From positions 1 to 64,000 of the forward strand of contig JAUNSU010000005.1 in NCBI GenBank assembly GCA_030539035.1: a stretch of 64,000 nt of DNA, in the 5' to 3' direction. The translations under genes and the position numbers were made by a program. The notes under the pieces are model-generated. The model was not told the origin of the DNA. It did not search any database and was given only the letters and a program-made list of their open reading frames with translations. The stretch is from Planctomycetia bacterium. Its GTDB lineage: Bacteria; Planctomycetota; Planctomycetia; Pirellulales; Thermoguttaceae. This document shows, piece after piece, positions 1 through 30,908 of the stretch. Numbering within the stretch: position 1 is the first letter of the stretch; the number at the start of each line of letters is the position of its first letter.

Positions 1-3000
1 ACAGGGACTTTCACCGCGATTAACGAGACGGTCGATCTCGATAACGGAATGACCCTTCGTCTCGAAAACGGAAAAGTCTTCACTTACAAGACCGGTACCT
101 ATCTGATCAACGGAACGACCTATTCCGCCATCTATGTCGATGAAACCGCAAAGTTTACAACAGTCGATCTTTTGGGCGAAGTTCAGTCGGATAATACCTG
201 GGCCAATGTCCGCGCTGCCGTTACCGTTTCCAATATGGTTTTGGTCAACGGAAATATTACCGCTGCGGTCAGCTTCAATTACAAATACAATTCCGACGGA
301 ACAAAGATCCTTTCCGCCGGTTTCAAGGGTTCCGACGGTAAAGTCATCGACATCGCTTCCGGAAGCGTCATTCGATGGAACGGTGTGAATTACATCTATT
401 CCTCGACGACGGATACTGCCGGGAATCTCAATATCACTTTCACAAAGGTCGAATTTTCCAAAGATCTTTTCGGAGCCAGTGTTGGAAAAACGACCTCGGT
501 TCCTGTTGAACTCGTTACTCCATCCGGCAATGTTTCGCTCACATACTTGTATCAGTACTCCAGCACTGGAGTGCTTCAGCAAAGCAAGTTCATGCAAAAC
601 GGAAAAGATTATGCGGTTGAATCCGGTTCAACGATTGTTTACAACGGATCGAATTACATTTACCGGAATCTTTCCGGCAACGTGATCTTTGAAAAGACCG
701 ATAAGGCGGAAGGCGACGTGATCGTTCCGTCCGATCTCGGCGGAATCGGCGCGACGGCCGGGACAATCGAAGTTACGTTGTATACTTCCAGCAGTTCCAG
801 AACCGTCAATTATAAAATCAAAAACGGCGTGAATGTCTTTACAGACGCGTATGATCTCCAGGTGAATGTTCCGACCGGTACCCTTCTTTCTTTCGTCGAT
901 CCGGTATCCGGCGCAACCCGATATTTTGTTTATACCGCTTTCGTTCGCGGTGTTACCGAAGAAGCCTTTACGGAAACCTGCTTCGATATCGCTCCCAATG
1001 ATGAATCCGGTGATGGTCTGATCGTTCTCGCGACCGATCGTCCGGAATATGAGGATTCCCTGCGAACTTACCTGCTGACCCTGAAGATCGATCCGATCAC
1101 AGGAACGCAAAAGTTTTATCGGACTTATTCCCGCGGTGAAATCACGGTCGGCGATGTTACCGATGCCTTCTTCTTCGAAGACGGAACGAATTTCCTCTTC
1201 TATCGCGATACCGCTTCCGAATGCCTTGGGGCAAGCTATTTGAAGATCACTCCGAACAGCGCGTCCGGAGAGCAGCTTTATCTTTACAGCAATACACTCA
1301 GCTTTACCCTTCGTGAAGTGAATGATGCCGATCAGAATCTCGAATACGATTACACGAACAATTCCGCGTCCGTTTCCTTCCAGACATTTTTGACCCAGGA
1401 CGACTTCTTCGTTCCGAACGCTTCTCTGGAAGAACTGGATAAATCGACGAATAGCGATATCTACGTCAATGGACAGACCCAGAGTCCGGAAGATCATTAC
1501 AATCCGAATCTCGGCGCGATCGTTGATCCGAACTTTACCGTTAAAGATCTCGTTCTTCTTACCCCGGAAGACTGGTTCTCCTTCGAAATTCAGGGACAGA
1601 TCACAGCCGATAATAATGTGTCAATCGAATTCAACAGCAGCCTCGGCGATCTGAATCTTTACGTTTACGCGGTGGATTCCTCCTATCCGGGCGGATACCG
1701 CCTTGTCGGACGGAGTGTTTCTCTCAACGATAAAGAAACGGTTTCCCTTTACGGCGAATCGTCCGGAACCTTCTTTGTCCGCGTTGTCGGAGCTTACGGC
1801 GCGAAGAATCCGAATTACACCTTGACGATCAACGGATCGATGCCCGTCGAGATCGATAATGCCGTCGTCGGAATCGATGAGATCACAACCATTAACTCCA
1901 GCGCGCTCGTTACCTGGGAACTCCTCAAAGATTACAACGGCGAAGGTGTTCCGGAAGGTTATCGATACGGCGGTGAAAAAGAATATATCAATAAAACGGT
2001 CATTCAATGGTCCACCGACGATACTTTCGCAATATACAATGAAGCGGAAGCCGGACGATACGCAACGAGCTGGACTCTTACGAATCTGGATCCCGATACA
2101 ACCTATTATTGCCGCGTTATGGCTTACAACGCCAACAACGAAAGCGGGGAATTCAGCCATACCGATTGGTCCGCGGTCCGATCGTTCAAGACCTCCGACT
2201 TCTTCAACAACGCGAATTATTACGCTCTGGTCATTGGAGCTTCCGAATACTCCAGCGGTGAAGACGCGGCTTTCGCGAAAGAGGATGCCGTCGGCGTTTA
2301 CAATGCCCTGATCAGTTCCGCTCCGCAGTGGAGTTCGGAAAATGTTTCCCTTTTGACCGGAAAGGTTACTTACAGCCAGATCAGTACAGCATTCGACAAT
2401 ATCGCGTCCCGGGCCAAAGATAACGACGTCGTCTTCATCTATTACGCCGGACTCGGATACACCAGCAGCGTCTCCGGACTCGATGTCAGTTATCTGCGCA
2501 CCTACAAAGCGACCGCCGATATGAAATATCTGATCAGTCCCGATGATCTCAGCGTTCTGGTCGATCGCTTGAATGTCGGCGAAATTCAGGTCGTTCTGAA
2601 TCCTTACTTCTACAATACATCCCAGGCCGCCGACGCGGAACGATTCCATTATACCGACTTTATCGATGTCCTCGATAATAATACCGATGAACTCGTTACC
2701 GTGATCACCGCGGCGAACACAAAAGAAAATACTTACAAAGACTCGACCGGAAATGATTACTTCGGCGAGTACATCGTGAACGGAATGACCCTGCGCGATG
2801 AAAACGGTCTTCTCGTTGCCGATACTAATGAAGACGGACGTCTTTCCATGCGCGAATTGTACGATTACACGTACAGCAATGTCGTTTCCGATACCGGCAA
2901 TATCCAGCATCCGCAAATCGGCGTCAACGGCGACCGCGATTCCATCCTCATCAAGGGCGATTGGACCGAAGACGGTTATTACAAAGATGATTGGTGGGAT

Positions 3001-6000
3001 GCTGACGGGATCGTCGTTAATTCCAAGACTGACTCTGTTGACCGATCCGACGGCGTGATCACGCTTCGTGAAGCGCTCGATTATCTCGGTACTTCCGACA
3101 GCCGCGATACCGTCCTCGAAAACGGTACCGCGATCACGCACGATGTCAACGGTGTTCCGGTTACCGAAGTTTTCGAATACGGCGTTACCGAAATTAACGA
3201 CGGCGATACCGTTACCATCGACGGAGTTGATTATGCCTATAAGGCCGGAATTCAGGCGACCGATGAAGAAGGGAACAGAAATCCCTTCGAACCCGGAACC
3301 GAATTCACTTACAATGGGGAAACCTACACCTATGTCGATGGGACAGAATTCATCGACGCAAACGGTGAACCGGTCGATTTCTTCAACGATATCGTCGAAA
3401 AAAATTCCGCAACGGTTCTCCTTGAAGACGGCACATCCGTTACTATCAATGAAGGCGGCCTGAAAACGGAAACCAAAGTTTACGATACGATCTATTTCGA
3501 TCCGTCTCTCGCCGGGGATTCAATAACCCTTGCGAAAGAACTGACGATCTCCGACGAAACCTTCATGAATGAAGATGGCGACAAAGTAATCGATTCCATT
3601 ACGATCGACGCTTCTTCCCTGCAAGGAACGGCTTCTCTCGACGCCAAAGGCGAAAGCCGCCACTTCAATATCGAAGATACCGCCGTCGATCCTATCACGA
3701 TCACCGGTCTGAAGCTCGTCAACGGTCTTGAAGATCAGGGCGGATCGATCTGGAACGAAGGCGCGGATCTTTGGCTGGTCAACGATCTTCTTTACGGCAA
3801 TGAAGCCCGTAAGGAAGGGGGAGCGATTTACAACGTCGGCAAGATCACGATCGTCAACAGCACGATTTCCGCGAACGACGGCGATACCGCCAGCGCGATT
3901 TACGGAACCGCCGGTTCGACTTTGAATCTTTACAACTCGATCGTTTACGAAAACCAGTCCACCGAAACCGTAAACTACAGTTACGAATATCTCGATCTTC
4001 TCGACGCTGAATTCTCCAAGTCTGTTACCGATGGATCAATCGTGATCTACGAACTCAACGGCGTTTCGAAGTACTATGTGTTCAACTACAATGCGGCCTA
4101 TGATAATACGGACGGCGATTCCTTTACCGCCGCTTCCACTCCGAAAGATATCTGGAAGTTGAGTGCCCGAACGGTTTCGATGACCCTTCTTCAGGCTGCC
4201 GGAAATGCTGCGCTCACCTATGAATACGAATATGATGATGCGGGCAATCTGATCACAAGCGCTTTCACTGTCAATTCGACAGGAGCTGCCTATGATCCCG
4301 CTAACGGTGCTCTTCTTCAGTGCACGGTCAACGGAACAGTTCGTTACTTCCGATATTGGAATTCCGGCACGGTCGTTTTCACCGAAGTGAAAGTACCCGC
4401 AGGACTTTGGGGAAGAACCGCCCAGCTGGTTCCGATGACACTGATCTCCCTGAACTCGGATCCTGTCGATCTCGTTTACAGCTATTCCTATGATGCAAAC
4501 GGAAATCTCACCGCCGAATTCCTTGATGCCAACGGAAACAAGTATACGCCCACCGCGGATTCGATCCTGGCCTGGAACAATAATGGCACCGTGAAGTATT
4601 TCCTCTATAATGGACATACATCCGGAACGTTCAACGCGGACTTCTTTGAAGAGACTTCGCTTCCGAAAGATCTTTGGGGATTCGGCTCCGCGGATATCAC
4701 AGTGAACCTTACTCTCGGTGATGGAACGTCGGTTGACTATACCTATTCTTACGATCGGAGCCTTTACAAGAGCGCGTTCACCAACGTTGACGGCGATCCT
4801 GCTGTTCCGTCCGACGGAAGTCTGATCCGCGATCAGGAATCCGATCAGTATTACTTCTGCTCCAACGCGAACGGCGATCCCGAATTCACGCTGACTCACA
4901 TTCCGAGCGGAATCTGGGGATCGGCCCTTACCGCGCCCAATACCGTCAAATTGACGAACGCCCTCACCGCCGCTCTGGTGAATTATACCTATCGAAATGA
5001 TGCCGACGGCAAGATCTCCCTCAGTGTCTTTACCGATACGAACAAGGTAGTATTGGATATTGCCGACGGAACCCGATTTTCCTGGAAAGATGGAACCGTT
5101 ACCCGTACGTTCGTTTATCGCAAAGTCAGCGGCGTCCCGACGTTTACCGAAGAATTGGCCGGTCCGACTGATACGCTTTCCGCCGGGGATATCTGGGGAT
5201 ACAAGCCGGGTGTTCCGAGTTCTCTTACCCTGGATCAGCCCGCGGTGAATTATCAGATCGTGCTCGAAAACGGCGCTGCTTCCGATGTTCAGTACTCCCT
5301 CGTTACAGATAAGGGTATCGCTTCGAAAAACGGAACAGTCTACACCGTTATTGATCCCGGCGCGTCCAACCTCAATCCGAATTCCGGATACGCCGATCTT
5401 CTCTTCACCGATTACTCGACCCGTAAGTTCACCCTTCGGGAAAAGATCAATGAGAACGTCGATCCGAATCTTTATCCGGTCAACAAAGGAAACTTGGGCA
5501 AGGCCCGATATCAGGACGGATCAGCGATTATGACCGATCTGGCCGGAAATTCCCGTTCCCTTTACGGCGGTGTCGATATCGGCGCTTACGAATGGGTCAG
5601 CAAGAATCTGATCATCTCGACGGAAGTAACGACTCTCCACGAAAACGAAAGAGTCGGAGATGATAAAGTCTCTCTCCGTGAAGCGATCAATTCCGCAGGC
5701 GAAAGCGTTCCGGTTACAACGCTTCTTTCCGATCCTCTTCTCGAAGGTCAGTCCTTTACGCTCAACGGAAATACGGTCTTCGTCGAAGACGGCGCGTTTG
5801 TTACACACAATGCCGGAGATTACATTTTCAAGGACGGCGGCAAAGTCACTCTTGGTGACGGCGATAAACTTTCTCTCGTTAATCCCGATAATACCTACGG
5901 CGACGAATATACTTACGGCACAGATGAAGAAGGAAACAAATGCTTCTTTAATTCTCTCGGCGAAAAGGTCGAAAACCCGTTCACCGAAGGAGATGATGTT

Positions 6001-9000
6001 CGATATATCCAGAAAGATTCCGCGGTCGAACTGATCACGTCTTACAGTACTTACAATTCGAAAGCCTTCAACGGGTACAAGACGCTTGATACGATCACTT
6101 ACGCCGATGGAACGACAGGCCAGATCCTCGTCGAAGACGGCGTCGTTTCCATTGTGGTCAACACTCCCCTTTCCCGCGAGATCGTTTTCAATCTTGACAA
6201 GATCAAGGCAAACGACTACGCCGATGATCCGACCGGATGGGCCGCGCTCATCGCAAGCGGGATCCTTCCGATCGATCTTGATAATACTCTCGAAATCTAC
6301 AAGAGTGTTACTATCGACGGATCGAATCTTACCGGAGCCGACAAGGCGAAGTTCACCGGGATCGAACTCGGCGGAGAAGATACTTTCCGTGTGATCCTCA
6401 TTGATTCCGCGGAAACTGGAAACGTTTCTCTCGCCAACATTACGATCAAGGAAGGATCCGCGGATGATGAAAACGGCGGCGCGATTCTGATCACCAACGG
6501 AACCGTTGTGCTCGACAAAGCGGCCCTGAACGATAATTTCGCAGGGACAGGCGGTGCGATTTACGTCTCCGCCGGAACATCCATTACCGTTACCGATACC
6601 GCATTCACAGCGAATATGGCTGATAACGGCGGCGCGATCTCTGTTCTGGGAACCGCCGATCTTACCAACGCAGCCTTTACCGGAAATGTATCAGACGGGA
6701 ACGGCGGTGCCATTGATTCCGCGGCCGGATCGAATATCACGATTAAAACTTCGACCTTTACCGGAAACAGCGCGCGGAACGGCGGTGCGGTCTCCGTGAA
6801 CGGAACCGGATCAATCGCCAATTCGACGTTTAACACAAACATGGCAGTCAGCGGCGGCGCGGTTTCCATAAGTGCCGGAGCCAAAGCCGATTTGACTTCC
6901 GATATCTTCTTTGCAAACGTCGCGACCAGAGACGGCGGTGCCGTTTACAATGCAGGAACCCTCACCGCGAAATCAATCAGTACATTCGATGCTGCGAATA
7001 AAGGAACAGTCGGAAATAGGGCGGCCAACGGCGGCGCGATCTTCAACACCGCGGCAGGCATTGCAACCGTTTCCGATTCCAAGCTGTTCTATAATACGGC
7101 GGACACAAACGGCGGTGCGATTGTAAACGATGGCGCCATGCTCGTCCTTTATACCCAAATCAGCGGAAACGACGCAGCAAATGGAGCGGGAATCTTCAAC
7201 AGCGCCGCAGTGAATTCCGCGGTTACCGGATATTCCCTCTCCGTTGTCAGTTCGCTCATCACCGGAAATACAACCGGATCCGGAATTGAAGCAAACGGTG
7301 CCGGAAATATCCTGATCAATACCTCGTCCATCGTCGGTAATGCCGAATACGGCGTCAACGCGGTCGGGACCGGAACTGTTACTCTGGAAAACTCCATTAT
7401 TTACAACAGTACGGTTAATCACGATGTAAACGATACGGCGAAATTCACAGTCAAATCCAGTGTGATCGGACAGACGATTACTGGATTCGATCCGCAATTC
7501 ACGCTCTTTACCGGGGATGATCTTGGTACTTGGAATACCTGGAATCTTCACAGCGATAATACAACCGAAATTCGCGGCCATGGTGATGTTGATAATCTGA
7601 GTTATACCGATCTTTTCGGTAAAACCGTGGAATTGACACGGGACTTCACCAAGAGCCGTAATCGTAAAACCGCGGATGCTGTCCTCGGATATTCAACCGA
7701 TGTCGGTGCCTATGAAAATGGACTTCAAAAAGAGAGCCCTTCGACCATTGTTACGACACTGGACGATACCGATGATCCGAACGACGGAAAAATCTCCCTT
7801 CGTGAAGCAATCAATTACGCGACCTCCAGTATGGTCGATGATCCGCAGTATCCTCTTGTTACCGATATCATCACATTCGATGCCGTTGAACTTGGTCTCT
7901 TCGAAAACGATCTGGTTGGCGTTATTACGCTTGACTGTGAAACCTACGGTGATCTCTTGTTCAACCAGGGAGCCGTTTTCACCATTCAGGGATTGACAAA
8001 AGTGATCAATGAGAAAACTGTTTCCGCAATCACGATTGACGGAAACGGGCACCGGATCTTTACCTCCATGGCGGGCAGCGATGTTACCGTAAATGATCTT
8101 ACCCTGGTCGGCGGGCACTCCGAAGACGATACCGACACCGTCTTGAACGGAAACGGCGGAGCTATCGCAGTTACCGGCGGATCTCTCAAGATGAATCGGG
8201 TCATTCTCAACAGCAATGAAGCGGAAAAGAACGGCGGCGCGATCTGGCAGGGCGCCGGAAGCCTGCTCCTTACCCAATGCGTGCTCCATCACAATCAAAC
8301 GACATTGAATCTCTCCACTGGAGAATACGGCGGCGGCGCGATTATGTCCGCAGGCGGATTCCTCGATGTCCGTGATTGCACAATCGTTGATAATACGTCC
8401 CAGAACGCAGGCGGTATTTTCGCCACCGGCGGTGTCGTCCGTATGTATAATACCATGGTTCTCGGAAACGAATGCTGGCTTTCTGCCAATATCGATTTCG
8501 AAGTCAAAAACGTCAGCCTCAACAGTACATTCAATAATGTTATTGGTTCGATGCGCGACGGCGCGATGTACAACGGTAAAAACGGAAATCAGGTTGGAAC
8601 GATCTCTTCTCCGATCCTTGCCGCAGATCACTTCAAGGATTATGCCTCGGAACATAATGGTACAAGCACTGACTTCTCCGGATACAAATTCGGAACAGGC
8701 AAAACAGCTTTCTCCACCGGAAGCCGATATACCTACAAGTATTATTTGGCAGATGAATCCAGCGCGGTTAATGCCGGAAATTCCCAGTTCGCGAAGAACT
8801 TCGACGGATCTCCGATCCTCGCGGATATCGAAGGTGTCCTCTACAGCGGATCCCTTATCGATATCGGCGCTTATGAAAACCCGGATGCCCGTGATCCGCA
8901 AAGCACCGTCGTTACGACCCTTGCGGATATTTACGATAAGACCGACGGTCTGATCTCGATCGGTGAAGCCATTGAAAACGCTAAAAAGCTCGGAACTCCG

Positions 9001-12000
9001 ATCACCTTCAATGTTTCCGCCGAAGAACTCGCCAACGCGAAAAACACAATTCAGCTCGCCAAAGAATACGATCTTGATTACGCGGTTACCATCGATGCGG
9101 CTAATGTCGAGGGGGGAATTACCCTTTCCGCCGCGGAAAACTCCGGAATCTTCAATGTTACCGGCGAAGGCAAATTGACGCTGAAATATATTACTTTGAC
9201 CAATGCCAATAAAGTTGACAACGGGGGAGCGATTTATCAAAACGGAATCAATACTGAAGTCTCCCTGATTAACTGCATCCTGTTCGCCAATCAGGCCCTT
9301 ACCGGCGCCGCGATTTACACTGCTTCCGGAAAATTGAACCTGCTGAATACGACCGTTGCCGGAAACGCCACGATGATCGATAACGCGAACAATCCGGTTT
9401 ACGCCGCGGTCTACTATAATTCCGGGGCACTCCTTTCCGTAAAGAACTCCGTCATCGCGCAGAACTATTTCCTCAGTTCGAACAACGCGAAGAATGCCGA
9501 TCTTTACTTTAAGTCCGGAACTTACGAGATCAATGCCAGCCTGTTCGGAGTCTTCTCCATGAACAACAGCGGAACGATCAACGGAAAGAACGGGAATATC
9601 GCCGGAACATCTGAATCTCCCGTCGATCCCCAATTCCGCGTGAATCCGGTCTTTGATGAAAACGGTGTTTTGACCAATAAGACTTCCGATGATGTTGTTA
9701 AAAATCCGATCGTTGATCTTCACCTCAAGGGCGCTTCCCAGGCGGTGAACGGCGGACAGAACAGCTTTATCGGACAGGCCGGTTATCTCGCTTCGATCAA
9801 GGCCAAGTCCCGATCGACAACCTACTATCTCACCACGGATTACGATAATAAAGATCGTATCGTGAACGGTACGGTCGATATGGGCGCCTACGAATTCGAC
9901 GGTGTTCTCGAAAAGCCGTCCATCGTCGTTACAACGCTCAGCGATGTCATTGATCCGGAAGACAACGTGATCTCGATCCGTGAAGCGATTCTTTACGCCG
10001 GATCCGGTTATCTTGATGAAAACGGAAAACTGGTCAAAGTCGGAACTACGATCACTTTCGATATCCCCGAAGAAGATTATATCGCCGGAAAGGGAACAAT
10101 CGTTCTCGCCGACGGCGCGATCCTCATCGAAAAAGGAATCACAATCGACGCAACCAGTGTCAAAGGCGGAATTACCTTTGACGCAGGCGGCAAGTCCCGT
10201 GTCTTCGAAATCGCTTCGGCCGATGATGATGTTATCCTGATCGGGATCACGATTACCGGCGGCGATGCCGGATCCCTTGGCGGCGGCGGTATTTATCATT
10301 CCGCGGGCAATTTGACCCTGATCAATACCCTTCTTTGGGGAAATCAGGCTCAGCGCGGCGCCGCGATCCAGTCCGAAAACGGATCCCTTCGTGTTGTCAA
10401 TACGACGATCACAAAGAACAATGCCAAAAACGCGGCCGAAGGAGCTTCTTCCTGCGGATACGGCGGAATCTACAGCCGGTCAAGCAGCGTCGCTCTCGAA
10501 AACTCGCTTGTTGCCTGGAATACCAAAAACGCGGATTTCACTTCCAACTATACTTTCAATGCGCTTAAAACCGCAAGCCTGTTTTCGCCCGATGTCTTTA
10601 TCCTTAATGCCTCGGATGAAACGGGTCTCAAGAATACTTACTTCTCCAGTTTCATTGGAATCGCGGATCAGAGCATCAACAGCGGAAACGGAATCAATAA
10701 TATCAACGGAAGTTATTCCGGGTCGACCGATACTCCCGCCGATCCCTATTTCATCAATTGGGACGCCAATAATTTCCAGCTTGGAAAAGGAACCGACGGA
10801 TATAATTCCAAAGCGATCAATTCAGGCGACAACTCGCTGGCCCGATATCCCGACGGATCTTCGCTCACCGTCGATCTGGCCGGAGCGGCCCGATTCAAGG
10901 GCAAAGTCGACATGGGCGCTTTCGAATCGATCTACGGAGCCGGTGAAATCCCCAGCCTGATCGTTACATCCCTCGATGACGCTGATCCGAACGATGCCGA
11001 CGGTGTGATCACTCTGCGTGAAGCCGTTGAAGTTTACGCCAACAATTACGGACTCGGAAACGTGATCACATTCGCCGAAAGCCTCTCGGGAAAAACGATC
11101 GAGCTTAAGAAACAGCTTTATATCAATCAGAACATTCGAATCGACGGATCTTTCCTCGGAAACAATATCACGATCTCGACCGCGAAAGACGCGAATTCCC
11201 GGATCATGTATGTTAATAACGGAAACGTCGAACTGGTCGGATTGACTTTGAGCAATCATTACACCGATCGGAAGATGGAAGAGTTTACGATTGAAAACGG
11301 CGGCGCGATCTATCTGCGCGCTGGAAATTTGACCGTTTACAATACCCTGATCTATGATAATATCGCTGATAACGGCGGTGCGATCTATGTCGCGGCCGAC
11401 AGCGAGAATGTTACTTTGAACATCATCGGATCGACGATTACCGACAACAAGGCCGCAAACGGCGTGATCTGCAACGCGGGGAACGGCTGGATCAATGTTT
11501 ACAACAGTATCATCGCTAAAAACGATTCCACTGCGGAAAATGCGAATGTTGCCGATATCGTCTTCAATTATACGGATCCGAATTACGTCAAGGAACGTGT
11601 CCGTGTTGGTTACAGTTTCTTCCAGAATTCGCCTGAGCTCGTTTCCCTCCATGGTGTCAACGGCAACATGATCGGAGTTATCGGCGGTACTTCCGGAATT
11701 GATCTTTCGTCCGAAGCGAACAAACTGTTTGTCGATTGGGACAACGATGAATTCCAGCTCGCCGACAATTCTCTCGCTGCGAACAGCGGATCCAATCGTT
11801 ACGTCGTCAATTCCTCCGAAAAAGACGCCGCGGGCAATAACCGGATCTACGGTCAGGTCGTCGATATGGGCGCCTTCGAAAATCAAAAATCGCGCGACAA
11901 CTACTTCTACAACGGAATGGACGAAGTTACCGTTACAACGAATCTCGATAAAATTGACGCGAATGATGATCGGGTCTCGCTCCGCGAAGCGGTGGCCATG

Positions 12001-15000
12001 GCCGAACGCCTTTATGATATCGGACTGAAAAAGACGGTTACTTTCTCCCAATACTATCTCGGTGCCAATCCGACCATGAATCTTGATACTCAAAGCATTC
12101 TGATCACACGGCCTTTGACGATCGATGCTTCTGCGGTCAATGGATATGCCATTAACGGCAATTACAATAATTCGATCTTCCGGATCGATACAGGATCGTT
12201 CACCGAAGATGAAGATATCGTCAAACTGTACAATTTCGAGCTCTATAACGGAAGCGCGTCAAACGGCGGTGCAATCTATCACAAATCCGGAAATCTCTGG
12301 ATTTTGAATACCCTGATTCATTCGAACCGCGCAACAAGCCAGATCTCGACCAATGTTACTTACGGCGGCGGTGTTTACAGCCTCTCCGGCGAGATCACCA
12401 TGGTCAACTGCACCGTTGCAAACAACAGCGCAGTTCAGGGCGGCGGAATCTATACGGAAGACAGTTCCATTCATCTTTACAACAGTATCGTTGCATGGAA
12501 TACCGCGACCGGATCGACCGGGAAAAATGACGGCGATCTCTGGCTCAACGGTGCCATTGATGTTCAATACACCATGATCCGGAATTCGCAGCGGCTTTAT
12601 TCTCTCAATGGTGTCAGCGGAAATATCATCGGGTACGGCGATGACAGTACTGTCGATCCCCAGTTCGTCGATATCAGTGCGAATAATTACAGACTCTATC
12701 CCGATAACGGAAATAATCCTGCTCTCAAAGCAGCGAACGGGACCTATCTGGTTCAGTACGGAATTACGAGAGATCTTGACGGAAACCTCTTCGGAAACAC
12801 TAATACCCAGCGGCAAGCCCGTGCGGGTCTGGATTACATCGCTCAGGCTGAACTCGACGGTGTGAGTGATCTTGCCGGCCTCCTTGCTTATATCGATAAC
12901 AGCATCGCAAATCGGGAAGATGCCCTTCGGATCATCAGCGACAGTGCGAATTATAATTCCTATGCCGGATTGATGGAGTATTATCGCAGCGGTCTGGAAG
13001 ATCAGGTCCTCGCTTCGCAGACGATTACATCTCTTGATCTCTATGAAGCGGATTGTGTTCGTACCGGTATTGATCCTACCCTTGACGGTTTTGAGGCTTA
13101 TCTGAAACAGAGATCTCTTGTTGAACATCTCGGACTGGTTAAGGATCTGCGGGCCAATCAGGAATTGGTTATTCCGAATACGGTCATTCTGCGTCAAGTC
13201 CTTGAAGGGCTCGTTGAAGACGGCGAGAAACGCTGGGATCTCTATTGGGTCGTTCTGGATACCGGACTGACCGATCTGGATGATGTCGTTGCCTATATGA
13301 CAAACGTCTCCGGAAACGCCGTTGCCGCCCAGTACGTCAAGAACGTGATCGAAGAGAATCCGGATACCGTTACTGATCTTGATTCCCTTAAAGCAAACTT
13401 GACTCTTAAAGCCTCGCCGACAGCGGATTTGGGTGCCTATCAGACGACGACCGAAAAACGATCCACGATCGTTACCACGGAACTCGATATCGTTAATCAA
13501 TACGATGGTTTGATCTCTCTCCGTGAAGCCATTCTTTACTCGACGGATAACAAGATCGGAAACGGTTTCGATTCCATCGGCGGTCCGTATACCAACTCTG
13601 CGGGAAGTTCCGCTTATTACGCGAATTATGTTCTCGACAACAGTCCGATTACATTTGACGCGTCTCTCGCCGGAAAAACCATTTACCTCAGTGCAAATTA
13701 CGGGGCTTTGAGTTTGACACACAACGGCGGAACCATGCATAATTACGCGACCCGTGATTATCTGATCGATGCGACTTCCCTTGCCAAAAACGGCGGAATC
13801 ACCATCGACGCGAGCAATCTCTCCGGAGACGGCGCGGTTATCTTCGAGTTGACAGGATATCATAACACAACCAATCAGGTTTACTCTCCTTACCTCGTGA
13901 TCAAAGGCGTTACTTTGACAGGGGCGAGCAATGCCGCCATTCGCCTGGATGAACATTCCATCGTGGAAGCCCGGAACTGCCTCTTCTACGGAAACGGATC
14001 CGCTGTTTATATCGATGATGATCAGGCAACCGCGTTCTACGGAATTGCTCATATCTACAGCTGTACCATCGTTCAAAACAACAATGGTATTTGGACACAG
14101 GGCCGTGCGAATGTCTATAATTCGATTGTTGCTCTCAACGGTGTTGACTTGAGAATGTCCTGGACGGTCAATCCCGCTCCTCCGGCATACAGAGCGATTT
14201 ATATCTATAATACGCTGTACACATCCGCTTCTTTCTATACCGGACGCTTCAATACGACGGCCAGTATTCAGTATGCAGATGTTACCGGATACGATTCCAT
14301 ATTCGTCGATGCGCCGAAACGGGACTTCCGCCTTACTGATTTCTCGCTCGCGGTCAATGCCGGAAACAACGATTATCTGGAAGTCAACCGAATCGCACAC
14401 GCCAAGCCGGAAGTCGATATCAACGGCAACCTCCGGGCTTACGGCGCCGCTACCGATATGGGTGCCTACGAACGGAACGATATCATGGATGCCGCTTCTT
14501 CCGTCGTTACAACGCTCGATGATATTATCGATCGAAATGACGGAGTCGTCTCTCTCCGAGAAGCGATCATGTACGCCGAACAGCGGCAGACCGGAAGTAC
14601 TGTGGTTACTTTTGATTCTTCCCTTAACGGCGGAACGATTACTCTCGACGCGGATCTCGGTCCGATCGTTTTGACCGATTGTGTTACAATCGATGCCTCT
14701 GCTCTGGCGGGCGGCTTGACAATCAGCGGTGATAACAAGACGGGTATCTTCTCCATCGATATCGATAATCACAAGTATCCGATCTACTATCATGGAATGA
14801 ATGTTAATGCGTCCGTTCCGAGTGATGTCAATGTCAATCTGAGAGGACTGACCTTGACCGCCGGATATACCGAAAAGGGCGGCGCGATCTATATCGCTTC
14901 CGGAAACGTTTCCGTCGAAAATACGAATATCTACGGCTGCGAAGCGACCCTTTGGGGCGGAGCGATCTACTCCTACAAGAATGAACTGACCTTGAAGAAC

Positions 15001-15456
15001 GTCAATATCGGCGGAAACAAGGCGGCCCATTACGGCGGTGTTGTCAACGAACAGGGCTCGATCTTGAGTATCGACAGCTATATCGCCGAAAACTGGGGTA
15101 CCGTCGCCGATTACGACTTCTACTATAAAGCGGTCTTTAATTCCGAAGATGAAGGATCCACCGGAAACGTCCTCGGAAAGACGCGCAATATCGCCCTCGA
15201 TAACGGTGTTAATAATAACTGGATCAGTATGAAAGACGACGTTAAAGTCGGTGATTTCGATGATAACGAAGTCTTCAGCGGGGATTGGGTCAATGGTGTC
15301 TGGAACGGTATTGGAGAGCCGGACGGCGGATTGACACGAACGTGGACCCCGCCGGCAGCCGCCGCGGCTCCGATCGCCGATCAGGTCAATACGGTTCTCT
15401 TTGCCGATCTCTCCTCGGAGGAGAATCTTGACGAGTGGTTCGAAAAGACCATCTGA
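1..15456 (+). CDS. Giant secreted repeat protein, 5'-truncated by window edge: caspase-like domain plus nine SLREA/beta-helix modules
   Basis: The reading frame is open from base 1, so the true start lies upstream; the first in-window ATG at 49 is internal to a repeat. Order seen: tyrosine-rich beta repeats (to about 1320), a PPC-like domain (about 1500-1855), an FN3 domain (about 1860-2205), a caspase-like domain (2215-2990), then nine modules that open with a V-T-T-L-x-D...SLREA motif (near 3010, 5611, 7741, 8911, 9922, 10957, 11929, 13468 and 14500). Each runs through NGGAIY-type beta-helix rungs, and the first eight close with a D-(I/M/L)-G-A-Y-E motif (choice-of-anchor-Q type). The ninth lacks that cap and ends in an acidic tail. 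Tyrosine-rich repeats with a P-x-(D/G)-(L/I)-W-G signature are inserted at about 3960-5230, and a helical insert at about 12830-13410. Such architectures are known from surface or exported proteins; adhesion or matrix function is inference. No sorting signal is seen at the C-terminus. Confidence 0.9.
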   Translation, partial: TGTFTAINETVDLDNGMTLRLENGKVFTYKTGTYLINGTTYSAIYVDETAKFTTVDLLGEVQSDNTWANVRAAVTVSNMVLVNGNITAAVSFNYKYNSDGTKILSAGFKGSDGKVIDIASGSVIRWNGVNYIYSSTTDTAGNLNITFTKVEFSKDLFGASVGKTTSVPVELVTPSGNVSLTYLYQYSSTGVLQQSKFMQNGKDYAVESGSTIVYNGSNYIYRNLSGNVIFEKTDKAEGDVIVPSDLGGIGATAGTIEVTLYTSSSSRTVNYKIKNGVNVFTDAYDLQVNVPTGTLLSFVDPVSGATRYFVYTAFVRGVTEEAFTETCFDIAPNDESGDGLIVLATDRPEYEDSLRTYLLTLKIDPITGTQKFYRTYSRGEITVGDVTDAFFFEDGTNFLFYRDTASECLGASYLKITPNSASGEQLYLYSNTLSFTLREVNDADQNLEYDYTNNSASVSFQTFLTQDDFFVPNASLEELDKSTNSDIYVNGQTQSPEDHYNPNLGAIVDPNFTVKDLVLLTPEDWFSFEIQGQITADNNVSIEFNSSLGDLNLYVYAVDSSYPGGYRLVGRSVSLNDKETVSLYGESSGTFFVRVVGAYGAKNPNYTLTINGSMPVEIDNAVVGIDEITTINSSALVTWELLKDYNGEGVPEGYRYGGEKEYINKTVIQWSTDDTFAIYNEAEAGRYATSWTLTNLDPDTTYYCRVMAYNANNESGEFSHTDWSAVRSFKTSDFFNNANYYALVIGASEYSSGEDAAFAKEDAVGVYNALISSAPQWSSENVSLLTGKVTYSQISTAFDNIASRAKDNDVVFIYYAGLGYTSSVSGLDVSYLRTYKATADMKYLISPDDLSVLVDRLNVGEIQVVLNPYFYNTSQAADAERFHYTDFIDVLDNNTDELVTVITAANTKENTYKDSTGNDYFGEYIVNGMTLRDENGLLVADTNEDGRLSMRELYDYTYSNVVSDTGNIQHPQIGVNGDRDSILIKGDWTEDGYYKDDWWDADGIVVNSKTDSVDRSDGVITLREALDYLGTSDSRDTVLENGTAITHDVNGVPVTEVFEYGVTEINDGDTVTIDGVDYAYKAGIQATDEEGNRNPFEPGTEFTYNGETYTYVDGTEFIDANGEPVDFFNDIVEKNSATVLLEDGTSVTINEGGLKTETKVYDTIYFDPSLAGDSITLAKELTISDETFMNEDGDKVIDSITIDASSLQGTASLDAKGESRHFNIEDTAVDPITITGLKLVNGLEDQGGSIWNEGADLWLVNDLLYGNEARKEGGAIYNVGKITIVNSTISANDGDTASAIYGTAGSTLNLYNSIVYENQSTETVNYSYEYLDLLDAEFSKSVTDGSIVIYELNGVSKYYVFNYNAAYDNTDGDSFTAASTPKDIWKLSARTVSMTLLQAAGNAALTYEYEYDDAGNLITSAFTVNSTGAAYDPANGALLQCTVNGTVRYFRYWNSGTVVFTEVKVPAGLWGRTAQLVPMTLISLNSDPVDLVYSYSYDANGNLTAEFLDANGNKYTPTADSILAWNNNGTVKYFLYNGHTSGTFNADFFEETSLPKDLWGFGSADITVNLTLGDGTSVDYTYSYDRSLYKSAFTNVDGDPAVPSDGSLIRDQESDQYYFCSNANGDPEFTLTHIPSGIWGSALTAPNTVKLTNALTAALVNYTYRNDADGKISLSVFTDTNKVVLDIADGTRFSWKDGTVTRTFVYRKVSGVPTFTEELAGPTDTLSAGDIWGYKPGVPSSLTLDQPAVNYQIVLENGAASDVQYSLVTDKGIASKNGTVYTVIDPGASNLNPNSGYADLLFTDYSTRKFTLREKINENVDPNLYPVNKGNLGKARYQDGSAIMTDLAGNSRSLYGGVDIGAYEWVSKNLIISTEVTTLHENERVGDDKVSLREAINSAGESVPVTTLLSDPLLEGQSFTLNGNTVFVEDGAFVTHNAGDYIFKDGGKVTLGDGDKLSLVNPDNTYGDEYTYGTDEEGNKCFFNSLGEKVENPFTEGDDVRYIQKDSAVELITSYSTYNSKAFNGYKTLDTITYADGTTGQILVEDGVVSIVVNTPLSREIVFNLDKIKANDYADDPTGWAALIASGILPIDLDNTLEIYKSVTIDGSNLTGADKAKFTGIELGGEDTFRVILIDSAETGNVSLANITIKEGSADDENGGAILITNGTVVLDKAALNDNFAGTGGAIYVSAGTSITVTDTAFTANMADNGGAISVLGTADLTNAAFTGNVSDGNGGAIDSAAGSNITIKTSTFTGNSARNGGAVSVNGTGSIANSTFNTNMAVSGGAVSISAGAKADLTSDIFFANVATRDGGAVYNAGTLTAKSISTFDAANKGTVGNRAANGGAIFNTAAGIATVSDSKLFYNTADTNGGAIVNDGAMLVLYTQISGNDAANGAGIFNSAAVNSAVTGYSLSVVSSLITGNTTGSGIEANGAGNILINTSSIVGNAEYGVNAVGTGTVTLENSIIYNSTVNHDVNDTAKFTVKSSVIGQTITGFDPQFTLFTGDDLGTWNTWNLHSDNTTEIRGHGDVDNLSYTDLFGKTVELTRDFTKSRNRKTADAVLGYSTDVGAYENGLQKESPSTIVTTLDDTDDPNDGKISLREAINYATSSMVDDPQYPLVTDIITFDAVELGLFENDLVGVITLDCETYGDLLFNQGAVFTIQGLTKVINEKTVSAITIDGNGHRIFTSMAGSDVTVNDLTLVGGHSEDDTDTVLNGNGGAIAVTGGSLKMNRVILNSNEAEKNGGAIWQGAGSLLLTQCVLHHNQTTLNLSTGEYGGGAIMSAGGFLDVRDCTIVDNTSQNAGGIFATGGVVRMYNTMVLGNECWLSANIDFEVKNVSLNSTFNNVIGSMRDGAMYNGKNGNQVGTISSPILAADHFKDYASEHNGTSTDFSGYKFGTGKTAFSTGSRYTYKYYLADESSAVNAGNSQFAKNFDGSPILADIEGVLYSGSLIDIGAYENPDARDPQSTVVTTLADIYDKTDGLISIGEAIENAKKLGTPITFNVSAEELANAKNTIQLAKEYDLDYAVTIDAANVEGGITLSAAENSGIFNVTGEGKLTLKYITLTNANKVDNGGAIYQNGINTEVSLINCILFANQALTGAAIYTASGKLNLLNTTVAGNATMIDNANNPVYAAVYYNSGALLSVKNSVIAQNYFLSSNNAKNADLYFKSGTYEINASLFGVFSMNNSGTINGKNGNIAGTSESPVDPQFRVNPVFDENGVLTNKTSDDVVKNPIVDLHLKGASQAVNGGQNSFIGQAGYLASIKAKSRSTTYYLTTDYDNKDRIVNGTVDMGAYEFDGVLEKPSIVVTTLSDVIDPEDNVISIREAILYAGSGYLDENGKLVKVGTTITFDIPEEDYIAGKGTIVLADGAILIEKGITIDATSVKGGITFDAGGKSRVFEIASADDDVILIGITITGGDAGSLGGGGIYHSAGNLTLINTLLWGNQAQRGAAIQSENGSLRVVNTTITKNNAKNAAEGASSCGYGGIYSRSSSVALENSLVAWNTKNADFTSNYTFNALKTASLFSPDVFILNASDETGLKNTYFSSFIGIADQSINSGNGINNINGSYSGSTDTPADPYFINWDANNFQLGKGTDGYNSKAINSGDNSLARYPDGSSLTVDLAGAARFKGKVDMGAFESIYGAGEIPSLIVTSLDDADPNDADGVITLREAVEVYANNYGLGNVITFAESLSGKTIELKKQLYINQNIRIDGSFLGNNITISTAKDANSRIMYVNNGNVELVGLTLSNHYTDRKMEEFTIENGGAIYLRAGNLTVYNTLIYDNIADNGGAIYVAADSENVTLNIIGSTITDNKAANGVICNAGNGWINVYNSIIAKNDSTAENANVADIVFNYTDPNYVKERVRVGYSFFQNSPELVSLHGVNGNMIGVIGGTSGIDLSSEANKLFVDWDNDEFQLADNSLAANSGSNRYVVNSSEKDAAGNNRIYGQVVDMGAFENQKSRDNYFYNGMDEVTVTTNLDKIDANDDRVSLREAVAMAERLYDIGLKKTVTFSQYYLGANPTMNLDTQSILITRPLTIDASAVNGYAINGNYNNSIFRIDTGSFTEDEDIVKLYNFELYNGSASNGGAIYHKSGNLWILNTLIHSNRATSQISTNVTYGGGVYSLSGEITMVNCTVANNSAVQGGGIYTEDSSIHLYNSIVAWNTATGSTGKNDGDLWLNGAIDVQYTMIRNSQRLYSLNGVSGNIIGYGDDSTVDPQFVDISANNYRLYPDNGNNPALKAANGTYLVQYGITRDLDGNLFGNTNTQRQARAGLDYIAQAELDGVSDLAGLLAYIDNSIANREDALRIISDSANYNSYAGLMEYYRSGLEDQVLASQTITSLDLYEADCVRTGIDPTLDGFEAYLKQRSLVEHLGLVKDLRANQELVIPNTVILRQVLEGLVEDGEKRWDLYWVVLDTGLTDLDDVVAYMTNVSGNAVAAQYVKNVIEENPDTVTDLDSLKANLTLKASPTADLGAYQTTTEKRSTIVTTELDIVNQYDGLISLREAILYSTDNKIGNGFDSIGGPYTNSAGSSAYYANYVLDNSPITFDASLAGKTIYLSANYGALSLTHNGGTMHNYATRDYLIDATSLAKNGGITIDASNLSGDGAVIFELTGYHNTTNQVYSPYLVIKGVTLTGASNAAIRLDEHSIVEARNCLFYGNGSAVYIDDDQATAFYGIAHIYSCTIVQNNNGIWTQGRANVYNSIVALNGVDLRMSWTVNPAPPAYRAIYIYNTLYTSASFYTGRFNTTASIQYADVTGYDSIFVDAPKRDFRLTDFSLAVNAGNNDYLEVNRIAHAKPEVDINGNLRAYGAATDMGAYERNDIMDAASSVVTTLDDIIDRNDGVVSLREAIMYAEQRQTGSTVVTFDSSLNGGTITLDADLGPIVLTDCVTIDASALAGGLTISGDNKTGIFSIDIDNHKYPIYYHGMNVNASVPSDVNVNLRGLTLTAGYTEKGGAIYIASGNVSVENTNIYGCEATLWGGAIYSYKNELTLKNVNIGGNKAAHYGGVVNEQGSILSIDSYIAENWGTVADYDFYYKAVFNSEDEGSTGNVLGKTRNIALDNGVNNNWISMKDDVKVGDFDDNEVFSGDWVNGVWNGIGEPDGGLTRTWTPPAAAAAPIADQVNTVLFADLSSEENLDEWFEKTI
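2215..2990 (+). other. Caspase-like (peptidase C14) domain with both catalytic residues replaced
   Basis: The segment begins YYALVIGASEYSS and continues with a predicted DA-x-x-x-x-x-L helix, D-V-V-F-I-Y-Y-A-G-L-G, a V-V-L-N-P-Y-F-Y-N strand and a closing D-T-N-E-D-G...EL-x-D-Y segment followed by QHPQ. This follows the order of bacterial C14 domains. In active members the strand before the loop ends S/A-G-H-G and the next core strand ends D-x-C-x-S-G. Here the His position is Leu (codon at 2452) and the Cys position is Tyr (codon at 2605). Family assignment is by pattern recognition only; the loss of catalytic residues is read directly. Confidence 0.75.
3960..5230 (+). repeat. Tandem tyrosine-rich beta repeats with P-x-(D/G)-(L/I)-W-G signature
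   Basis: Inside the first giant gene, about five units of 75-85 residues follow each other. Each has a Y-x-Y-x-Y-D-x-x-G-N-L-like strand, an F-T/L-D-x-x-G turn, a G-x-x-x-x-W/R-x-x-x-G-T-x-x-Y-F-x-Y strand pair, and then P-K-D-I-W-K, P-A-G-L-W-G, P-K-D-L-W-G, P-S-G-I-W-G or A-G-D-I-W-G. More diverged copies lie at about 150-960. They separate the beta-helix of the first SLREA module from its closing D-I-G-A-Y-E cap. I do not recognise the unit as a named family. Confidence 0.7.
12830..13410 (+). other. Helical insert inside beta-helix module 7
   Basis: About 190 residues rich in Leu, Glu, Asp and Ala, with none of the NGGAIY rungs found on both sides, lie between the last rung of module 7 and its closing P-T-A-D-L-G-A-Y cap. 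It contains repeated short patterns such as D-L-A-G-L-L-A-Y, Y-A-G-L-M-E-Y-Y, L-D-G-F-E-A-Y-L and L-D-D-V-V-A-Y-M. This suggests four or five related two-helix units. A similar class of insert occupies the same structural position in the second giant protein. Confidence 0.6.
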
Positions 15457-17380: not shown

Positions 17381-20300
17381 TCACTTCAGTTCCGTGAGAA
17401 GTTCATCGTAGATCGAAGATTCCGCGGTTCCGCTTTCGGAAACGATGTTTTCTTCGAATCCGTAATCTCCGATCAGATCCAGATCTTCCTCGGCGTAAAT
17501 CGAGTCGATCGACTGATTGATGTGCTGACGAAGGATCCGATTGCTCAGACGCTCCGCAGTGAACGACGGAAGAACCGAAGCCGCGATCGGAAGTTCGGCC
17601 GCGCTGACCGGTTTTTCACTCGTTTCGCGAAGTCCGAACAGCTCCTCAAAGAAGAGCGCGTTCTCCTGGACATAATTCGATCCGGCTGTCTCCGAAGGCA
17701 AACCCGATTCGCTCGGAACCGTGATCGTTTCTTTCCTCGGGAGTGATGAATCCGCGGCGGACACAATCGTTTCCATTACCGGAAGTTCAGCCGGAGCCGC
17801 ATAAGAATCGACAACATGATTTCCGAGCGAGTATACGAACGATTCGCCGTATCCCTCGGTATCGATCAGTTTAAGGGTGATCGAGAAGTCACCGTTCTTT
17901 TCATAATAATGCGCGGCATTCAACTTTGTTCCGGCCGCTGCGATCGGCAGCTGATCTTTGGATTGATCGCCCCAGTTTACGAACCATTGACTGATCCGAC
18001 CCTGCGAGTTCATTCCGACATTGATGACGAGCTTGAGAACCTGTCCGTCGGCGAATTCGTACGACTTCACGGAAATGGTCGGGAGAACATATTCGATGGT
18101 AACCATCTGTTTGGACGACCAGCGAAGAAGTTCGGGATTGATCTCGGTTTCGCCCGGCAGCAATGATCCGGCCGCAACGATCTCTCTTTCCTGATCCGAC
18201 CAGTCGGAGTCGATATAGCCGTCATTCGACAAAGCCTTGATCTGGAAGATGTACGTCGCGCCGATTTCAAAGCGCGCATTGACCGTTGCCGCAGTTCCGT
18301 AGAAGAAGGACTGACCGGCGGCGTTCTGATAGATCGTCCAGGCATCGTCGGATTCTCCGACCTTCTTGTACCGGATCTGATACTTGTCGGCATGATCCAC
18401 AGCGAGCCAGGAGAGGTAGACCGAGGTCGAAGTAACCAGATGTGTATCCACAAGCTGCGATAGGCCAGTCTGCGGCGCTATCTTGATCGTGTAAACCGCT
18501 TCATAAGGATCCTCAACGCCATCGACTTTTGCGAGGATCGTAATGGAATAAAGTCCATCGGGGATTTCCCTCGCCGCGGTCAAGTTTCCGGTTGCGGAAT
18601 CGATGATAAAGAGCGGCTCAACCAGCGGATCCGCGTTTTCATCGGCCTTGATCGAATAGGTAACCGCAGTACCCCGCCGTTCGGCCCGGAATCCAAAGGT
18701 CGTGATTTCAGTGCCGGCTTCGATCTTGCTGTCGGTTGAGACAACGGGGATCTCGTTGGCCGCGTTCGCGTTTGAAGCCGTAATGATATTGATCTTGCCT
18801 TCTCCCTGATATTCGTAAGCGCCGATATCGATGATGGCGTTGACGATTCGCGGATTGCCCGCGGCATCCTGCGCGGCGGCAGTTCGGGTTGTCGTTCCCT
18901 TGTCGATCGCGGCGGTTGCCGTATCAAGCAGCTGAAGATTCCAGCTCTTGTACAGATTCTTGTTCCATGTTGTGTAGGAAGCGAACGAAGTAAAGAGGGA
19001 CACGGGATCCGTACCGATCAAATTATTGACATTATTGGCAACAGACCATTTTTCGGGCTTGGCATAAATATCGGCTTCAACGGCTGCTTTGTTTCCGGTA
19101 ACGATGGAATCGGTCAGTGTGAAATCGATAATGGAGAAGATTCCGCCGCCCTGTCCGGAAAGGACCGTTTTGCCGTTTTCATCGACGGTTCCTTTGGCGT
19201 AGTTTCCGGCGAGCGTGCTGTTTTCGATCTCAACGTTTCCGGAGACCAGGGCGACACCGCCGCCGAATCCCGCGCTGTTGCCGGAGAGATCGGAATCCCG
19301 AATGATCAGGGACGTTCCCTGATGGGAAACCGCGCCGCCGTATCCGGTTCCGGAATCGTTCCCGGAGATCATGGATCCGATAATGGTAACATTACCGATA
19401 TTGTTGGTTCCGCCGTTGAAGATCGCACCGTTTCCGGTCGCGGTATTTTCAACGATCACACTGTTTAGAACGGTCAAATCGCCGACGTTGCGAATAGCGC
19501 TTCCGTCCTTTGCGGTATTGTTCTTAAAGGTACAATCTTCAACGGTGAGTTTATAGGCGTTATTGATCGCGCCGCCCTGCATGGGCGATTCGCTTGCGGC
19601 CATAACGAGAGAGTTTCCGTTTATAAAGGTAATTCCCTTGAGGAAAACACCGCCGGTTTGAGTAATGGTCTTATCGGTAATATTATTACTGATACTGAAG
19701 ATCCGGCTCTTGTTCTGGGCATCGATTGTGATTCCCCCGATGGAAGACGCATCGATATTGATCACAGTAAGATGATGTCCGTCGAACGTTGCGTTATTAT
19801 AAGGGATCTCGATCTGCCCGTTTTGCAGAACGATGGTCTTTCCTTTCAGATCGCTGGAGAATCTGATATCCGCAATTCCGCCATCGATCCCCTCGTTGGC
19901 CGCGGAGAGAATCGCTTCCCGAAGCGAAGTCTTTCCGTCATCGGGATCGACGATATCCTCTTCCGTGTTTACGATGAATTCGTTGGAAAGCTTGACTTCG
20001 AAATCAACGTCGACCCCATTGAAGTCGGACCAGTTGTTCAGCTTCGTACTTTCCAGAACCGTATTGTTTACATCGAGATAGATCCGGATTATGTAGTTGC
20101 CTTCTCCGAGGAATCCGAGACTGTAATCGTTTACGGAGAATGTTCCGTTTTCCGCAAGGAAGTCGGTACTGGAGAGTTCTTTCGTTTCGATGTACTGTCC
20201 TTTGTTGATCTCGACATATTCCCCGTCAATCTGCTTATAGAGATGGATCTGGTAATCGAACGAACGGAAGATGATGGCGGGGCCGAGATTGATCCCGGTG

Positions 20301-23300
20301 AAGTTGACGGTAACTTCGGTCGCGGTACTTGGATTGGCCGGATTAACACTGACCTCCGGTGTTGTAAAGGCGAGATCACTGTAAACAATCGCGGCGAACT
20401 CGTAGGCACCGAGATCGACGATCGGAATATAGATTTGTCCGCCTGCTGTGGTTCCGTTAAAGATCCGGGCGTTTCCGAGGATATCGTATTCAAGCGCGAT
20501 CTGGCCGTTCGGTGTCATTTGAATTGCGTTTTCATTGATTCCGACATCGATTCCATAAGAAGTGCTGGTGAGCTGAAGTCCGTTTTCGGCAAGGACTCCG
20601 GTTTTCACCGTCTGGAAGGTTTGCGCAAGATCAACCTTGAAGAAAGGATCGATGATATTGGCATCGGATCCGATAAAGCATGTACCATTGACGGTCCAAT
20701 CTTCGGTCTCTTCGGCCCATCCGATCATGGACGCGGAAACGGCAACGGATCCTCCGGCGCTAATGATATCGAGTCTTTGATCGCCAAGGGTATTTTCCCA
20801 ATCGGACGCATCACGAGTCTGTGCGACGATCGAATTGAAGAGGGCAAGGCTTCCAGTATTGGAGATCGATCCGCCTTTTTCCGCCGCGGCACCGTTGACA
20901 CCGACTGTAACATTGTACAGGGCAAGAGCTCCGGCGGCATTGTAAAACGCCGCGCCTTCCGCCGCCGCGTTCATCCCGAAAACAGAGTTCGAGATGAAAG
21001 CAGTTTCATTAAGCAGATAAGCCGCACCGCCCCGGCCGAAGATCGTCTCTGTTCCCGCTGCCGTATTACTGAACGATGCGCTGTTTCCTCCGATTCGGCT
21101 GTTGTCGATGTAAAGGCCTGTTGTGCCGGGCAATCCGGACCGGTAAAGACCCGCGCCTTCAGATGAAATGATCTCCTGATTATCCTTGTTGAATACGGAC
21201 AGATCCTTGTCGGATTTAATCTCGATCGTATTCTCCTGGATATTGGATCCGGAAACAATCGTATCGACACTGACCGAACCGTTCACGGAAGGATCCAATG
21301 TGTAGGCATTATAGATCCCCGCGCCGGCCGTCTTGATTCCTGTGATATTGTCCCGATCAAAAGTTCCGAGATTGACATTGATCTTGTTGCCGGAAACGGA
21401 TGTTCCCAGGGCGCCGCCCATCTCAAATCCATTTTCGACATAGATCCCGCCGCCGCGAACTGTAAGATCGACCCCGTATCCAAAGGCCGGATCGATCGTA
21501 ACGATCGTTTCATTATCTTCGATTTCCGAATTATAGATCTTCAGAACAGTACTGTCGTTCGGATCGAGAGCGGAGACGTTTTTGACCGCGCTCCAAATTC
21601 CCGCGCCGCCGATTGTCCGGACCCAATTACTCTCTTCCGCGGCAGAGCAATTGATCGTAAGCTGGTTTTTACTGATCACGGATTGATCGATCACGGCAAC
21701 AGCGGTTGTATAAAGACCGGCACCGTAAAGTTCGCCGGTATTGTTCATGATAATGGAATCGGAGAGTTCCAGCTTTCCGTTTTCCGCGGCGATTCCACCG
21801 CCGATCATCGCGCTGTTATTTGCAGCGTTGATCCCGGAGATCACGGCATTGCCGCTGACATAAAGCGCACCGCCGTAAAGGGTATTGACGATTCCCGTTC
21901 CCTTGATCAGGCTGTTTTCGGAGAATTCAATATCCGAAAGTTCAAGATCGCCGACCACGGCCAAACCGGCTCCGTATCCGGTGAATGTGCCCGACGCGTC
22001 CACTTTCGGATCGATCGGATTCACGGAAACGGTATTATTCTCATACTTGGTTGGATTCAGTTCATCTGTGCTTCCGGTAATGATGGTTGTTCCGGCACTG
22101 TAAAGACCGGCGCCGCCTGCCTTCACGTTGATATTCACATTCTGATAATCCAAAACGATCGTATTACCGGTAAAGGAAACATTGTCCATGATCAGATTCT
22201 GATCGCTTTGACTGTAAACACCGGCACCGTAGGCTTCCGGATAGGTATTGTATTTCTCATAGACAACTTCGATCTTATTCTTTACAACGGCGGAATTGTT
22301 CATTGTGAGCGATCCCGTGCTGTAGATTCCCGCTCCGTACTGACGGGCCATGTTATTTTGAACCGTGCAGTTGTTCAGTGTAAGGTTTCCGTAGTTTTCG
22401 ATTGCGCCGCCGTTTCCGCCGCCGATAATATCGAATCCGTTTTCGGCTCTTTCAAATTCGGCAAATCCGTTCTGAAGAACCATGTTGTTAATCGTAATAT
22501 TGATGTCGGAAATTTTATTCGATCCGAACGTAAAGATCTGAATGGCGTCCTGACCGCTGACTGTAACCGGGAGATCTGTCGAAACTGCCGGATCCCAGGT
22601 TTTCGTTGCATCATTCCATACGACGAATTGACTTGCGTCGATCGTGATCGATTTTTCGACAATGATTTTTCCGTTTTCCGCAACCAGATTGATCTCTTTT
22701 CCCGGCTGATTGAAAACAGAAGCGTCAAAGAGGATCACAGATCCGAGTGTATCCGTCTGCTTGAGGACGTTGCGGTCTTTATAGGTAAGGATCTGTCCGG
22801 CGGAAGAAGGATATTCCGTTCGCCGAATCGAATAAGTAACACTCTTGAGAGGATCGTAGACGTATTCTTCGGTACGTTCGGTCCGATCCGTGTAGAATTT
22901 GTTTTCCGCCGCGTCGTAATAGCCGTAAACAGTCTGCTGATCGGCGGAAAGAAGGATATCGCCCTCTTCCGGAGAAATCGTTTCGGATTTTACGATTTCG
23001 TATGTACCGGCATTTCCGTTGAACGTGAGATCGGTTCCCTTCTTAAGGGCATAAAGATCAGTCCCTGAGCTCCAATATCCATTTTGCCAAGTCAAAGTAA
23101 GTTCGGCTGTGAGTTCTTCTCTGACTCGAACAGAGTTCTCGTTGAGCTTGAAGACGGTTTCTCCGGCAGAGACTTTTACCTGATTTCCGACAGCCAAATC
23201 CTGATACACGTAAGCTCCGGCGGTTCCTGTTCGGATATAATATCCGGAAGCAGTTTGGACAAAAGTAACAGGATCTGCCGCCTTGTCGTAGCCGCTGATA

Positions 23301-30835: not shown

Positions 30836-30908
30836 GAGTTTGACTCCTGAAATATACAAAAATACCATTTTTTCGGGCAGAAATACCCCCACCCCGGGGC
30901 TCTTTCTC

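Follow-up and report, generated by a model that had tools for sequence, protein, structure and literature searches.

What becomes of a caspase-like domain in a giant surface protein once both of its catalytic residues have been replaced? The window analysed here, 64,000 nucleotides in length, forms the start of contig C7 in the 4.2-Mb draft genome (assembly 93% complete) of a member of the Thermoguttaceae. Its first frame is open from base 1 and runs on the forward strand to position 15456, encoding the C-terminal ~5150 residues of a giant exported protein (a 5151-aa ORF; giant 1). The initial annotation of this DNA had placed a C14-type caspase domain without its catalytic His and Cys at 2215-2990, a stretch that lies in a single open frame on the forward strand, and had proposed a binding, sensing or structural role for it. 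We compared the domain with its orthologues and predicted its structure, and we examined the protein that carries it and the giant protein encoded beside it.

The domain begins where it was first placed and ends about 35 bases earlier than annotated, spanning 2215-2955 on the forward strand (residues 739-985 of the 1-15456 frame) as judged from AlphaFold2, PDB matches and a 23-member orthologous clade. Both catalytic substitutions had been read exactly. The catalytic His position (2452-2454; residue 80) is occupied by Leu in a YYAGLG motif, in which GLG aligns with the SGHG of active C14 peptidases, and the catalytic Cys position (2605-2607; residue 131) is occupied by Tyr in VVLNPYF, in which LNPYF aligns with DACHSG. 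Misalignment of these residues, which the initial annotation had named as a possible error, is rejected, as C14 relatives that bear the dyad fix the GxG and LD/LN columns of the alignment. An Asp that is invariant in the orthologues and in active C14 relatives (Asp24, 2284-2286) is present. The Cys-2 position (2599-2601), which we take to be that of the usual S1-pocket Asp in metacaspases, holds Asn in the window, as read from the alignment of the 23 orthologues. The C14 order of elements is also kept, with DTNEDG...EL and QHPQ aligning to their counterparts in intact Saprospiraceae C14 proteins. The EF-hand-like segment DTNEDGRLSMREL, a common feature of bacterial C14 domains (2821-2859, forward strand; seen in the alignments and in a weak PF13202 match, E 0.041), is retained in the genus of the window, g1, and partly gone in a second genus, g21.

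The best curated model for this domain is the EACC1-associated caspase (NCBIfam NF047832, caspase_w_EACC1), which aligns to residues 3-222 at E 1.8e-7; the score of 30.9 bits is far below the cut-off of 140, and the dyad is missing here. Searched alone, the window domain is too divergent to match Pfam C14 (PF00656), for which two orthologous domains, L069 and L067, score 33.7 and 33.8 bits against a cut-off of 21.4, and a sequence search of the PDB with it returned nothing useful. AlphaFold2 gave a model with a pLDDT of 90.1 and a pTM of 0.91 from a 25-sequence alignment, which included intact, active Saprospiraceae C14 sequences and may favour the canonical fold. The best PDB matches of this model in Foldseek are GSU0716, MALT1 and metacaspase 9 (3bij, 4.8e-11; MALT1, 1.2e-10). 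A second structural aligner (VIA) superposes it on Arabidopsis metacaspase 4 with a Z of 22.9 (rmsd 2.3 over 218 residues) and on Geobacter GSU0716 with a Z of 21.0. Taken together, the profile match, the scores of the orthologous domains and the predicted fold show that the resemblance is not accidental. Positions 2215-2955 are thus predicted to adopt the alpha/beta fold of the C14 caspases, as initially supposed, and we assign them to the pseudo-orthocaspases, in which a p20 caspase fold has its His-Cys dyad replaced.

A profile of four members (A2), run over 119 genomes of the family, recovered 23 orthologues at E <=1e-61; the next matches, ordinary C14 proteins, begin only at 1e-13. They are confined to two Thermoguttaceae genera (gut Planctomycetota), being found in three of four g1 genomes and in 20 g21 genomes. 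Each genome has a single copy, mostly in an ORF of 5.1-6.0 kaa; the shorter ORFs are possibly cut by contig ends. The metagenome-assembled genomes that bear them are labelled Planctomycetia, Planctomycetaceae or Thermoguttaceae, and several come from the gut of buffalo, goat or deer. Nothing else at this level turned up in 396 genomes of the order, where the sole further match (E 6e-16) was to a 604-aa ORF in another family.

An active C14 peptidase requires a catalytic His and a catalytic Cys, and none of the 23 orthologues has either. The His column holds Ser in 13, Gly in eight and Leu in two; the Cys column holds Gly in 19, Tyr in two, Asp in one and Ser in one. In the same alignment, all nine C14 relatives have His and Cys at these positions. 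By pairs, the window has Leu/Tyr, the g21 members combine Ser or Gly with Gly or Ser, and one orthologue, L008, has Ser/Asp. Whether the substitutions are conserved, as the initial annotation had asked, therefore receives a divided answer: the absence of the dyad is universal (23/23), but the substitutes vary (L/S/G and Y/D/G/S), so that what is conserved is the absence of chemistry and not one particular residue. Its central proposal, a preserved fold with lost chemistry, agrees with the predicted caspase fold and with the missing dyad in every orthologue. At Cys-2, all 20 g21 members have Asp, and those of g1 have Asn (two) or Glu (one). That the domain might still be catalytic by another route, through a shifted nucleophile or a different chemistry, is hardly credible, as the 23 sequences share no conserved Cys, Ser or His at this site or beside it.

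A tree of 50 domains groups all the orthologues in a single clade (100/99), separate from the 27 remaining C14 domains. Most of the latter were directly seen to carry the dyad; the few exceptions include L114, which has no GHG match, and L118, a fragment. The simplest reading is a single ancestral loss of the dyad, after which the folded domain was maintained. The reading frame is open in all 23 orthologues, and in nine close pairs omega over the domain (simple pairwise Nei-Gojobori averages) is 0.09-0.26, like that of the flanking regions, which shows purifying selection. A relic that decays after loss of function and is merely carried in a huge gene would explain why both catalytic residues are gone and why the domains within g1 share just 33-44% identity. 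The open frames and low omega disfavour such pseudogene decay, as do the confident predicted fold and the persistence of the domain in two genera after the loss, and we consider it very improbable. Outside the old active site, every member of the clade has W39 (PQW/PHW), which none of the aligned active C14 sequences has. Other columns that set the clade apart from the nine C14 relatives (e.g. N70 and V72) are not claimed, since most are present in Saprospiraceae too.

The pseudo-caspase lies within a much longer chain. The N-terminal 1109 residues of giant 1 are encoded on another contig of this genome, C156 (L157; G000:C156:1-3330, reverse strand), which brings the protein to a total of ~6240 aa. 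The window opens with the same 55 bases with which C156 ends, the reading frame is continuous across the overlap, and the order of homology against the orthologues in genomes G001 and G002 agrees. The 55-base overlap has the size of an assembly k-mer, which makes the join likely, not proven; as read from these sequences, C156 and C7 are probably adjacent in the genome.

On C156, the N terminus of giant 1 carries LESLEERQLLA, a planctomycete export-type motif (LEPLEDRxLL) that scores below the Pfam PF07595 cut-off. In the window, a PPC-like beta-sandwich segment (1489-1896, forward strand) precedes a fibronectin type III (FN3) domain (1897-2193, forward strand; PF00041, E 2.3e-5), which lies immediately 5′ of the pseudo-caspase. 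The PPC-like segment itself has no direct match and aligns with orthologue segments, of which that of L069 matches PF04151 (PPC) at E 2.2e-8. The FN3 domain scores 24.9 bits against a cut-off of 25, which the orthologues exceed. Downstream, positions 2998-15300 (forward strand) encode a long repetitive region of CSLREA-type 'SLREA' repeats and Chlam_PMP-like GGAI repeats (PF02415, E 4e-4, 20.8 bits against a cut-off of 20.6), presumably a beta-helix stalk; a Pfam search of 7903-15453 gave no match. The order of PPC-like segment, FN3, pseudo-caspase and repetitive SLREA/GGAI region is common to the orthologues. From the sub-threshold motif, we infer that the giant is exported and displayed on the surface. 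Matches to Por_Secre_tail were not accepted as a type IX sorting signal, as they sit in the PPC-like segments. Short acidic C-terminal tails (e.g. SSIYDELLTELK and SLYDEIAWFVLEES) are typical of the exported proteins of this genome, among them giant 1, the neighbouring giant 2 (ends at 15456 and 17381) and L124, and are perhaps a sorting signal.

The initial annotation had described one dead domain; further ones are present in giant 1 and in giant 2. The N-terminal domain of giant 1 in genomes G001, G002 and G023 resembles a group of proteins with the pattern CWA...GGHAITMWG...DSDD. Intact members of this group match Pfam Mac-1 (PF09028) at E 0.0013, with 18.3 bits against a cut-off of 20.3, and their profile matches an IgG-degrading protease (PDB 2au1) at E 9.4e-7; a phmmer search with the L069 domain returned nothing useful. 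The second dead domain of giant 1 and its intact relatives can thus be placed with the Mac-1/IdeS-like cysteine peptidases, from which it differs by the absence of both Cys and His in 21 of 22 giant-1 orthologues. The exception, L069 (8825-9670, reverse strand, genome G002), keeps the Cys, the His and the Asp pair (C, H, D, D), and 11 relatives in smaller ORFs retain Cys and His. The window protein's own copy, on C156, is dead (HQSWGAVDADI, ATSAITVWGY), and an intact Mac-1-like protein is encoded on contig C39 of the same genome.

Giant 2 is the convergent neighbour of giant 1 (17381-30910, reverse strand; 4509 aa) and has the export motif LEPLEDRQLLS near its N terminus (PF07595, E 0.012, below cut-off). 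Its Mac-1/IdeS-like domain (29564-30460, reverse strand) lacks the nucleophile Cys, having STH-METAAEMLWVSGW in place of CWAGASANMLAYTGW. In hhalign it aligns with active relatives at 98.7%, over the N-terminal part only, and the assignment rests on sequence profiles because single-sequence AlphaFold2 reached a pLDDT of 33. The reprolysin-like (M12B; PF13688, PF13582) domain of giant 2 (28703-29260, reverse strand) aligns in hhalign with intact HExxHxxGLxHD relatives at 100% (E 8e-41) and differs from them in the absence of the zinc ligands and the catalytic Glu. The HExxHxxGxxH site reads ASASIGGALGLSSD in the window, SSYYSARSFGVEVSS in G001 and WASYNAGGQLGLRSI in G002; both giant-2 domains are dead in two congeners as well. 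Most g21 copies keep the reprolysin-like motif, and an intact reprolysin-like protein is encoded on contig C51 of the window's genome. In the giant 2 of one g21 species (L112, genome G093) the motif is degraded to HQIGFSLGLRPDG, apparently an independent loss. Several g21 giants of 3.7-9.3 kaa (L073, L074, L076, L079, L081, L082, L085 and L086) carry a tandem pair of reprolysin-like domains, both with HExxH intact. Inspection by eye of the N termini of further giant ORFs in this genome (C71 and C136) revealed no recognisable protease domain. Downstream in the window (32177-63913), the genes include homologues of alpha-L-rhamnosidase, arabinofuranosidase, NAGLU and GH42, as well as a sugar-binding regulator of the AraC type, a DUF3987 protein and a phage-type integrase (34326-35498).

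Intact relatives in the same cells raise the idea of a regulatory decoy, in which the dead domains would bind the substrates or inhibitors of active C14, Mac-1-like and reprolysin-like proteins and so tune them. The intact proteins on C39 and C51 would suit this, as would the further C14 proteins of three congeners, most of which have the GHG and DxC motifs, and pseudo-caspases that regulate active ones have been cited as a precedent (PMC3501461). However, a C14 search of the window's own genome, in its 93% complete assembly, found no match, which leaves the pseudo-caspase there without a visible active partner, and a decoy role appears unlikely.

We favour, at a probability of roughly 60%, the reading that these domains serve giant surface proteins as binding or scaffold modules without catalysis. 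It draws on the predicted fold, the absence of the dyad from all 23 orthologues, their single clade, the selection on the domain, the architecture, and the parallel losses beside intact relatives; the binding, sensing or structural role first proposed for the pseudo-caspase would fit it. Giants with dead proteases would probably hold or scaffold other molecules and not cut them. Most simply, both halves of the C14 dyad would have been lost in the common ancestor of giant 1, the domain being kept by selection since. Displayed on the cell surface by the long repetitive stalk, the protein would use the dead proteases towards its N terminus as non-cutting receptors, and either the former substrate cleft or a new surface could hold peptides or proteins. 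Retention of the S1-pocket Asp in 20/20 g21 members makes binding of basic peptides plausible there. Cys-2 is Asn or Glu in g1, which makes a different ligand or surface probable in that genus.

Two observations weigh against binding. The residues at the former catalytic positions vary, as they also would in a module retained for its fold alone, and the window's own genus has lost the Cys-2 Asp, which is the best hint that a pocket was retained. A purely structural reading would go further and see in the dead domains compact spacers or building units for the giant stalk, with no specific ligand. Besides the varied substitutes, four domains of three unrelated folds have lost their chemistry in two giants, as expected if fold stability alone counts, and selection on the pseudo-caspase equals that on its flanks. 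Spacers of this kind sit less well with a single copy per genome in a fixed architectural place, with the invariant W39, or with the Cys-2 Asp of g21, and we regard them as a lesser, though real, possibility.

Related cases place the loss of the dyad among known phenomena. Pseudo-orthocaspases are known in cyanobacteria and alphaproteobacteria (PMC6426788; SyOC, PMC7889975), where a p20 caspase fold that lacks the His-Cys dyad is likewise kept as a pseudo-enzyme. Their typical, not obligatory, replacement is Tyr and Ser, whereas here it is L/S/G and Y/G/D/S, and the domain described here, in Planctomycetota, is part of an exported protein of 5-6 kaa that also contains FN3, repeats and another dead protease. 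A 2012 survey found the dyad conserved in 64% of planctomycete C14 sequences (PMC3501461); it shares the phylum and the kind of loss, given there as a statistic. The CspC pseudoprotease of Clostridioides difficile (PMC6636752), repurposed for sensing, is an analogy only, being a spore protein with another protease fold. In the open-access papers searched we did not find giant 1, its clade and architecture, or parallel losses in other protease folds described. The kind of loss is thus known and the variant new.

Pseudoproteases are usually met singly. Here, two unrelated dead folds occur in one conserved giant across some 20 species, two more dead domains lie in the neighbouring giant, and the genome still encodes intact relatives. 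Tentatively, three unrelated folds of exported proteases (C14, Mac-1/IdeS-like and reprolysin-like) may have been converted in gut Thermoguttaceae into non-cutting capture modules on giant surface proteins. By such a general 'dead-protease receptor' strategy, host, diet or microbial proteins would be bound by several pseudoproteases on one molecule or on neighbouring ones. The losses form a series, with the caspase dyad missing from a whole clade, the Mac-1 dyad from all but one species, and the metalloprotease site from one genus. This series is a natural experiment in the conversion of protease folds into binding or structural modules, and the dead-protease giants are directly testable proteins of an uncultured gut lineage.
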